DNA from: Rhodothermus profundi
Lineage (GTDB): Bacteria > Bacteroidota > Rhodothermia > Rhodothermales > Rhodothermaceae
Direction of reading: 5' to 3'
Length of the DNA stretch: 64,000 nt
Assembly: GCF_900142415.1 (NCBI RefSeq)
Contig: NZ_FRAU01000001.1
Coordinates: 248,001-312,000, forward strand
A program made the position numbers and the translations under genes. This document shows, piece after piece, positions 24,951 through 28,506 of this stretch; position 1 is the first letter of the stretch, and every line of letters begins with the position of its first letter. Under the pieces are notes generated by a model that saw only the letters and a list, made by a program, of their open reading frames with translations, did not search any database and had not been told where the DNA came from.

Positions 24951-26627
24951 ATGGAAAACCACGAAGTAGCTCGCCTGCTCCGTGAAACGGCACGGCTGCT
25001 GGAACTGCGCGGTGAAAATCCGTTTCGCATTCGGGCGTATGAGCAGGCTGCCGAAGCGATTGAACAACTGGAAGATTCGGTTGCCGAACGAGTGCGCCGG
25101 GGCACCCTCACCGAGATTCCCGGCATCGGCCGAGGCCTGGCCGCTCAGATTCAGGAACTGGTTGAACGAGGCTCCTCGGAAGTTTTGGAGCGTCTTCGAC
25201 AGGAATTGCCCCCGGGCCTCCTGGAGCTTCTGACCCTGAAAGGTCTTGGTCCCCAACGCGTACGGCAACTCTGGCAGCTACTGGGCATTACCTCGCTCGA
25301 TGAGCTGGAAGCGGCCTTACGCGAGGGGCGGCTCAATCAACTCAAAGGCTTCGGGCCTCGCCTGCGCGAACGGCTGTTACGCGAACTGACCCTGCGCCGC
25401 CACTATCGCACCCTGCGGCTGCTGGCGCAGGTGTCTCCCATCGCTGATGAGCTCCTGACGCGCCTGCGCCAGCACCCAGGCGTGCAACGCGCTGAACAAG
25501 CTGGCGCGATCCGACGCCTGCATGAAGTAGTGGACTGTATCGAACTGGTAGTAGCCGGCCCTCTGGAAGCGGTGCAGCAGGTCTTTGCCCTTCCGCATCA
25601 ACGGACCGGACCGCACGGCGAAACGCTCCTGGAAGGCACGCTGCCAGACGGATTCCCTATCCGCTTGATTCTAACTACTCCGGATGCTTTTGGCACCACC
25701 CTCTGGTGGTATACTGGTTCAGCGGCCCACTGCCAGGCATTTGTGCAAGCGTATGGCCCACCCACCCCATGTTCCGAGGAAACAGCTGTCTATGAGCAAG
25801 CTGGCCTGCCATTTATTCCGCCCGAACTGCGTGAAAACCAGGGCGAACTGGAGGCGGCTGCACACAACGCCCTGCCTTCCTTAATCACCCAGCGCGACCT
25901 CCAGGGTGTGCTCCATAACCACTCCACGTACAGCGATGGTCGCCACACCCTCCGGGAAATGGCCGAAGCCGCCTACCATCGAGGCTATCATTACTTTGGC
26001 ATTGGAGACCACAGCCAGTCGCTTACCATTGCCCGTGGTCTCTCCATTACTGAAGTGCATCGCCAGCAACAAGAAATTCGCGCGTTAAATGAAGCACTGG
26101 CGGCGCGCAACTTCCGCATTCTCAGCGGCACCGAATGCGACATTTTGCCCGACGGAACGCTGGACTATCCCGACGAGGTATTGGCAGGCTTCGATTATGT
26201 GGTAGCTAGCGTGCATACCCGGCTGGACATGGACGAAAAAACGGCCACCGAACGTATCCTGCGCGCCCTGCGCAATCCGCACGTCACCATACTGGGACAC
26301 CCGACCGGCCGCCTGCTCCTTCGGCGAGAAGGCTACCCCCTGGACTGGTCCCGTATAATTGATGCCTGCGCCACGTACCAGGTAGCTATTGAACTCAACG
26401 CCAACCCCCAGCGGCTTGATATCGACTGGCGGCGCATTCGTATGGCCACTGCGGCCGGTGTCCCCATCGTAATCAACCCGGACGCCCATGCCATCGAAGA
26501 ACTGGACTATGTGCGATGGGGCGTTGCTATGGCCCGCAAGGGCTGGTTGACGCCCGATGCCTGCCTGAACACGCGCGAACTGGACGAGCTGATCGCCTGG
26601 TTCCAACAACGTCGTCCCCGCACCTGA
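24951..26627 (+). CDS. polX: PolX-family protein with intact PHP domain but degenerate polymerase site
   Basis: The 558-residue protein has the PolX order: helix-hairpin-helix N-domain (ENPFRIRAYEQAA, EIPGIGRGLA, LKGLGPQRV), a polymerase-X palm (about 160–265) and a C-terminal PHP domain (about 318–558; LHNHSTYSDG, GIGDHSQSL, GTECDILPDG, VASVHTR, NPDAH). PHP metal ligands look present. In the palm, the usual G-S-x-R-R…G-D-x-D reads GAIRR…VDCIEL, so the two catalytic Asp become Cys196 and Glu198. The third Asp aligns with Arg238, before DAFGTTLWWYTGS. Nucleotide transfer is therefore doubtful, whereas the phosphoesterase or 3'–5' exonuclease role may remain. It is followed directly by the acylase-family gene. 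Confidence 0.9.
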   Translation: MENHEVARLLRETARLLELRGENPFRIRAYEQAAEAIEQLEDSVAERVRRGTLTEIPGIGRGLAAQIQELVERGSSEVLERLRQELPPGLLELLTLKGLGPQRVRQLWQLLGITSLDELEAALREGRLNQLKGFGPRLRERLLRELTLRRHYRTLRLLAQVSPIADELLTRLRQHPGVQRAEQAGAIRRLHEVVDCIELVVAGPLEAVQQVFALPHQRTGPHGETLLEGTLPDGFPIRLILTTPDAFGTTLWWYTGSAAHCQAFVQAYGPPTPCSEETAVYEQAGLPFIPPELRENQGELEAAAHNALPSLITQRDLQGVLHNHSTYSDGRHTLREMAEAAYHRGYHYFGIGDHSQSLTIARGLSITEVHRQQQEIRALNEALAARNFRILSGTECDILPDGTLDYPDEVLAGFDYVVASVHTRLDMDEKTATERILRALRNPHVTILGHPTGRLLLRREGYPLDWSRIIDACATYQVAIELNANPQRLDIDWRRIRMATAAGVPIVINPDAHAIEELDYVRWGVAMARKGWLTPDACLNTRELDELIAWFQQRRPRT

Positions 26628-26628
26628 T

Positions 26629-28506
26629 ATGAAGCGCTTGCTACTGCTAACTGCGCTGGTGCTGCTTGTCTTTGTCAGCTACCGGTATTTCTTCGCCGGG
26701 GTACGGAAGCAGACGTTTCAGCGTGCGGTAGCCGGTCTTCAAACACCAGTTACGATTCAGGAACTCCCCGACCATCTAATCACCATCCAGGCAGCGACCT
26801 TGAAGGACGCGCTGGCGGCGCTGGGATATGTTCATGGCCGCTGGCATAGCTGGCCTCTGTTACTCTGGCGCCAGGCAGCGCTGGGGCGCCAGGCGGAATG
26901 GTTCGGCCCCCCGCTGGTTCCTCTCGACAGCCTGATACATGCGCTGCTGCTTCCTCACCAGGCCCAGCGCGCTTATGAGCGGCTGTCGCGCAACGCGCAA
27001 GCTTATCTCAAAGCCTATGCTCATGGCTTACAGACTGCGTTGCAAGAACGAGCGGTTCGCCTGCGCGACGAACTGGTATTGCTGGGGATCACCGCGGAGC
27101 CCTGGCTGCCCTGGCATAGCCTGGCCATTGAACGATTAATGGCGCTCTTAATGCTACCAGACGCCCTTAAAACTGCGCTGCCTGTACTTTCAGCCCTTCA
27201 ATCCTGGCTCCACTTGCACGGCTTTCAACACAGCATGGCCTGGACACGCCTCCTGCCCGACAGTTCCTTGCAGCTTACCATGCGTTACGTCTATGGCGAC
27301 TTAGCGCTTCCTTTTTTTCAAGAAGTTCTGATCGCTTTGCCGCATGATACCCTCCGCCTTGTAACCATCCCAGGCACCTTAATTTTTTTAGCCGGACAAA
27401 CCCGCCACCAGGCCTGGTATCTACTGCCTACCGCCCGTCCGGCTACCCTGGAGGTTCAAGCGCGAACTGCTCTGGCGCTACGGTCCGTCCTTGCTCGCTT
27501 TCGGCTGCCCGGCGGTGACGAACGGCTGCTGCATCGCCAACTGGACGGCGACGCTCTGGTCATTACGGAACTTGCCCCCGACACCGTACGCCTGCTCCGA
27601 TGGACCGGACTCACTCCTGTTACCGATCTGCCCGCCTGGCTGGCGCTGCTCTCCGACACGACAGCGTCCTTTCACCTTTTTGCAGGCCACGGTCTATTGC
27701 TGACCGCAAACGGCCAGTGGCACCTCCTGGGGCAACCTTCTGTTGTTGAATCCCTTACCGATGGCATTCTGATCGGTCAGACCGACTGGCATCGCTGGAT
27801 CGCTCAACGCCTCCGCACTCTGCCCCCGCACCCGACACCTCTGAATGATACCGTCAGCCTCTGGGCGCAGCAGCAATTAGCTACCCTTCTTCCTGTCCTT
27901 GATACCATGACCTTTACCGATACGCTGACCCGAGAAGCCTATACGCTGCTGCGTAACTGGAACGCTTCCTACGATGCAGCCAGCATTGGGGCTACCATCT
28001 TTGACTACTGGCTGCATCAATATCAGCAACAAACCGGTACCCTGCCATCTTCCAGAGCATTTTCTGCTACCTCTGCCCAGCGCCTGCACACCGCCTTCCG
28101 CAAAGCAGTTGATATGCTGGCGCTGCGCCTGGGTCCCGATCTCAATCTTTGGCGCTGGGAGCGTGCGCACCCCCGGCATCTAGCCTTTCCTGCCTGGTCG
28201 CATTTGCCTCACCTGCCTGCGGCTTCCCGCTACGCACCACTCCAGCTTCCTGGCGAAGGACACCCCTCCACGATACAATGGGGCGTCTCTTCACTCCTGC
28301 AGGAACTACCAGCTCCGGCGCACTGGGAAGGATGGATGCGCTTCCCTCAACCGACCGCTTTTTATGTGCGGCGTCTCTGGCCCAGGGTGAACCGATTCCT
28401 GGCGCGCTACCAGCTCTCCACCCAACCATCCACTTCCGCTCTCCAACTTGCACCTCCGCTGCGCACGTTTCACCTCCGGCCCCGCAAAGCCCACCCCCTC
28501 AGGTAG
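26629..28506 (+). CDS. divergent penicillin-acylase-family (S45) protein
   Basis: The 625-residue protein starts with a signal anchor (LLLLTALVLLVFVSYRYFF). Residues 40–180 resemble the alpha chain of penicillin acylases: DALAALGYVHGRWHSWPLLL, RQAALGRQAEWFG, AYLKAYAHGLQTAL and EPWLPWHSLAIERL. The catalytic serine motif (usually SNNW) appears as SMAW at 202–205, and LRNWNASYDAASIGATIFDYW later matches the C-terminal family pattern. The region between is short and lacks the usual Asn-rich oxyanion segment, and the protein is shorter than the normal 750–850 residues. Autoprocessing and activity are uncertain. It begins 1 bp after the PolX-like stop. Confidence 0.7.
   Translation: MKRLLLLTALVLLVFVSYRYFFAGVRKQTFQRAVAGLQTPVTIQELPDHLITIQAATLKDALAALGYVHGRWHSWPLLLWRQAALGRQAEWFGPPLVPLDSLIHALLLPHQAQRAYERLSRNAQAYLKAYAHGLQTALQERAVRLRDELVLLGITAEPWLPWHSLAIERLMALLMLPDALKTALPVLSALQSWLHLHGFQHSMAWTRLLPDSSLQLTMRYVYGDLALPFFQEVLIALPHDTLRLVTIPGTLIFLAGQTRHQAWYLLPTARPATLEVQARTALALRSVLARFRLPGGDERLLHRQLDGDALVITELAPDTVRLLRWTGLTPVTDLPAWLALLSDTTASFHLFAGHGLLLTANGQWHLLGQPSVVESLTDGILIGQTDWHRWIAQRLRTLPPHPTPLNDTVSLWAQQQLATLLPVLDTMTFTDTLTREAYTLLRNWNASYDAASIGATIFDYWLHQYQQQTGTLPSSRAFSATSAQRLHTAFRKAVDMLALRLGPDLNLWRWERAHPRHLAFPAWSHLPHLPAASRYAPLQLPGEGHPSTIQWGVSSLLQELPAPAHWEGWMRFPQPTAFYVRRLWPRVNRFLARYQLSTQPSTSALQLAPPLRTFHLRPRKAHPLR

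Follow-up and report, generated by a model that had tools for sequence, protein, structure and literature searches.

Prostova et al. (2022; PMC9226535) assigned 27.5% of prokaryotic PolX proteins to a noncanonical class that is found chiefly in Bacteroidetes and Deinococcus-Thermus and whose main cluster includes a Rhodothermaeota member. The class comprises 302 variants of the metal-binding triad, along with changed dNTP sites and shortened domains, and two of its members have been studied biochemically: the PolX of Deinococcus radiodurans (triad AEE) and that of D. gobiensis (ARE) show no polymerase activity and are Mn-dependent 3'-5' exonucleases. An earlier claim of polymerase activity for the D. 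radiodurans protein was not reproduced in the same study, which also reported a genome-wide association of noncanonical PolX with nonhomologous end-joining (NHEJ) genes (PMC9226535). A 2026 survey found the PHP domain to be conserved more strongly than the polymerase site (PMC12926913). Our literature search found no paper describing a Rhodothermus PolX.

Here, we describe the PolX gene of Rhodothermus profundi, located in a window of 64,000 nucleotides (contig NZ_FRAU01000001.1, positions 248,001 to 312,000), whose product carries the triad C-E-R. Judged from its sequence, the protein is a further member of the noncanonical class, a real and unsurprising one, and we put the probability at roughly 0.9 that it has lost the polymerase metal site and would act as a 3'-end-trimming PHP nuclease. 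The novelty of the locus is much lower than the first-pass annotation of the window implied, as the published class went unnamed there.

Results

The gene lies at positions 24951..26627 of the forward strand, on which all features given below with coordinates also lie, and forms an uninterrupted reading frame of 558 amino acids with zero internal stops. It is the only copy of PolX found in a search of the genome; no second, canonical paralogue was found in R. profundi, the only other match being a short PHP hit on contig 9. The product scores 463.6 bits against the NCBIfam model of PolX (NF006375; cut-off 426), and among proteins of solved structure, those nearest to it in sequence are the PolX of Thermus thermophilus (1.6e-108) and D. 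radiodurans (5.3e-93). The N-terminal 8 kDa domain and helix-hairpin-helix (HhH) DNA-binding part (aa 1-150; 24951..25400) match Pfam HHH_8 (1-75, 1.4e-22) and HHH_5 (91-146, 3e-11); they are followed by a palm with a degenerate metal site, delimited by alignment and predicted fold (about aa 155-245; 25413..25685; the motif GAIRR is at aa 185-189), by shortened fingers placed by alignment (25686..25830) and by the PHP domain (aa 317-558; 25899..26624; Pfam PHP 1.9e-9). The Pol beta thumb model left a subthreshold trace only. Several genomes of the Rhodothermales encode proteins consisting of the PolX 8 kDa/HhH part and a basic tail, with neither palm nor PHP (five loci); no second match of this type was found in the R. 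profundi genome.

In a MAFFT L-INS-i alignment with the PolX of T. thermophilus (3au2) and D. radiodurans (2w9m), the triad D198/D200/D243 of the former falls on C196 (TGT; 25536-25538), E198 (GAA; 25542-25544) and R238 (CGC; 25662-25664), the very positions that had been picked by eye; the same alignment also returns AEE for D. radiodurans, as published, which serves as a check of the register. The first-pass annotation had further stated that all three polymerase carboxylates were replaced. The three Asp are indeed all substituted, but Glu198, the one acidic residue left in the triad, is itself a carboxylate, and the loss is two out of three. Six congeneric sequences (79-82% identity; two of them possibly from one genome) read R-E-R at the triad, and within the genus, C-E-R is confined to the window, its Cys codon TGT being one base away from an Arg codon (CGT) that occurs among the congeners. 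A sequencing error behind the altered triad is ruled out by the congeners, which are altered as well.

The changes extend to the nucleotide pocket and the surrounding structure. In the alignment with T. thermophilus, the dNTP-binding K263 and S266 are substituted by A258 and C261, and the steric gate Y258 by W253; the fingers have 32 residues as against 47 in the same span of T. thermophilus and 47-56 (mean 52) in canonical relatives, and the palm has 78 residues, about 3 fewer than in T. thermophilus and below the canonical range of 81-89. Glu198 might in principle still serve as a metal ligand, and one may picture a weak or altered nucleotidyl transfer that uses this residue together with non-Asp ligands, in a palm that is still folded and under purifying selection and in a dNTP pocket where G256-S257 and R189 are retained. 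We find such activity very improbable, however: the first metal position is a Cys and the third an Arg, the lysine and the Ser/Asn of the pocket are gone, the fingers are truncated, the triads are free to vary among relatives, and even the D. radiodurans PolX, with two acids in its triad, is inactive (PMC9226535).

The PHP domain gives the opposite picture. Its nine metal ligands, HHHEHHEDH (H322, H324, H354, E395, H422, H450, E481, D511 and H513), are all kept in the alignment with T. thermophilus PolX, and the first-pass annotation's description of the metal motifs as intact thus holds. In Bacillus subtilis PolX, the residues R469, R474, N498, R503 and K545 are required for the nuclease action of the domain. 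We placed these from their published numbering via the shared metal ligands, the numbering differing by 15 throughout the stretch from E410 to H528, and found all five conserved as R454, R459, N483, R488 and K530, forming the DNA path of the window protein. Changing Phe440 of the B. subtilis enzyme to Ala causes a strong drop in nuclease activity; the window protein has Leu425 at this position, where Leu is frequent in both canonical and noncanonical PolX.

The same combination of sites recurs among the relatives. The survey covered 394 genomes from the phylum and 114 from the order and, with fetched loci added, gave 157 sequences, which were aligned with the two references. The triad has three acids in 27 of the 159 sequences and is altered in 132; the altered triads are spread over dozens of variants, yet the PHP ligands HHHEHHEDH are complete in all 132. 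Because of these counts, the coupling of an altered triad with an intact PHP site is, at the level of sequence, far beyond chance. A tree of the full-length proteins separates the 27 canonical from the 132 noncanonical sequences with local support of 0.997. When the palm and fingers are left out, eight canonical sequences group with the noncanonical ones and one noncanonical sequence with the canonical; the split is then not clean, and the noncanonical PolX may have arisen once or more than once. In four genomes of the order, a canonical DDD or DDE PolX is accompanied by a further match that falls in the noncanonical group.

Within the genus, dN/dS is about 0.10 over the whole gene and 0.07-0.18 in the palm. 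Between the congeners and the window, dN is about 0.20-0.25 in the palm versus 0.08-0.10 in the PHP domain, that is, the palm evolves 2-3 times faster, and mean pairwise identity within the order is 0.65 for PHP and 0.29 for the palm (among canonical PolX, 0.49 and 0.41, respectively). We infer that the catalytic constraint on the palm has gone and that a structural constraint is still present. In an AlphaFold2 model of the protein (mean pLDDT 92), the palm is well folded, with block pLDDT of about 87-98, and the best structural match of the model is T. thermophilus PolX (3au6; Z 45.2, 533 residues aligned, rmsd 7.3), followed by D. radiodurans PolX (2w9m; Z 40.0, 465 aligned, rmsd 8.8); the PHP domain matches YcdX (Z 27.3, 223 aligned, rmsd 2.2). 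The fast-evolving palm could also be read as that of a decaying gene, the loss of the polymerase being a first step toward a pseudogene, and one congeneric genome (98% completeness) shows no PolX. On account of that absence, the gene is probably dispensable. With the low dN/dS, however, the gene is not a pseudogene; neither the window nor any congener examined has an interrupted reading frame, and the class, its PHP site untouched, occurs across much of the phylum. The selection data refute decay, and its probability is practically nil.

The locus is an old place for PolX, as four families of the order share its arrangement of genes, and recent transfer finds no support in it. PolX diverges from a block of S41 protease, ExbB and ExbD genes, and in the four families, it is adjoined by a gene of the penicillin-amidase family. 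In the window, this gene, a divergent S45 family member (26629..28506), lies immediately downstream of PolX on the same strand and stands outside the mechanism proposed below. The usual penicillin-amidase motif at the Trp is GSNNW. In the window gene and five further loci, the motif reads HSMAW, HSLAW, RSMAW, HSVAW or RSVAW, with the Ser kept at W-3 and different residues around it, and catalysis is putative.

Discussion

Our analyses support loss of the polymerase with retention of the PHP phosphoesterase as the best reading, in agreement with a class already described, for which biochemical proof comes from two Deinococcus homologues. We picture the protein as a Pol beta-like DNA-binding scaffold, consisting of the 8 kDa/HhH part, the palm and the shortened fingers, fused to a complete PHP phosphoesterase. 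By analogy with the enzymes of D. radiodurans, D. gobiensis and B. subtilis, from which all the activities are deduced, the 8 kDa/HhH part would bind DNA at ends, at gaps or at damaged 3' termini; the PHP domain would then trim the 3' strand, most likely as a Mn-dependent 3'-5' exonuclease and possibly also as an AP-endonuclease, 3'-phosphatase or 3'-phosphodiesterase; and the gap would be filled by another polymerase.

For noncanonical PolX generally, the proposed setting of such trimming is NHEJ, where the nuclease would work on the ends beside Ku and LigD, and the published genome-wide association of the class with NHEJ genes speaks for it (PMC9226535). In our data, however, searches for Ku in the R. 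profundi genome and in six more members of the genus were negative, as were those for a LigD N-terminal domain or an ATP-dependent ligase in the R. profundi genome, which has an NAD ligase only. Across the order, Ku is present in 10 of the 114 genomes, nine of which are without PolX, and the single genome with both has a Ku match of 92 residues; of the 104 genomes without Ku, 80 have PolX. The nominal significance of this exclusion (Fisher p 5e-5) is overstated, as most of the pattern comes from about two lineages; still, the near-exclusion runs against the role proposed for the class. With Ku missing from the searched members of the genus, LigD from the genome and the co-occurrence of Ku and PolX rare in the order, a role of the window PolX in NHEJ is unlikely, and we would rate it as highly so. 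Base excision or the cleaning of 3' ends without Ku appears a more likely setting for the trimming nuclease. Searches of the genome for Nfo-like and ExoIII-like proteins gave several superfamily matches, none of them assigned to the AP endonucleases.

The retention of a folded and constrained palm that has no catalytic site is a point of mild interest. Rather than being merely lost, the metal site may have been replaced: an acid at the second position and a basic residue at the third could form a salt bridge that holds the palm as a structural DNA-binding element in end repair without NHEJ. Within the order, a basic residue, mostly Arg, occupies the third position in 32 of the 47 sequences whose second position is acidic versus 11 of the 28 in which it is not (Fisher p 0.018, uncorrected for kinship; not significant outside the order). 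As the significance is limited to the order and takes no account of relatedness, the pairing of Arg238 with the acid at 198 is an idea only, and we regard it as doubtful.

Overall, the protein shares with the noncanonical PolX of Prostova et al. (2022) the replacement of triad carboxylates and dNTP-site residues, the HHHEHHEDH ligands of an intact PHP domain, the intact 8 kDa domain and the deletions in the polymerase part, with both fingers and palm shortened; it differs in its C-E-R triad, in a deletion that affects chiefly the fingers and in a genome from which NHEJ genes are absent. With the canonical PolX of T. thermophilus and B. subtilis, it has in common the domain order, the overall fold, the PHP site and the DNA path residues, but it is without the three palm acids of a canonical polymerase, having lost two of the three metal carboxylates, as well as the dNTP-binding Lys and Asn/Ser and a part of the fingers. 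The PolX-like proteins of Actinobacteria likewise keep the PHP nuclease in the absence of polymerase function; they are, however, physically without the polymerase region (PMC12926913), whereas the R. profundi protein retains a folded palm. To this class of polymerases turned nucleases, our study adds the enzyme of a likely thermophile and an order-wide survey.
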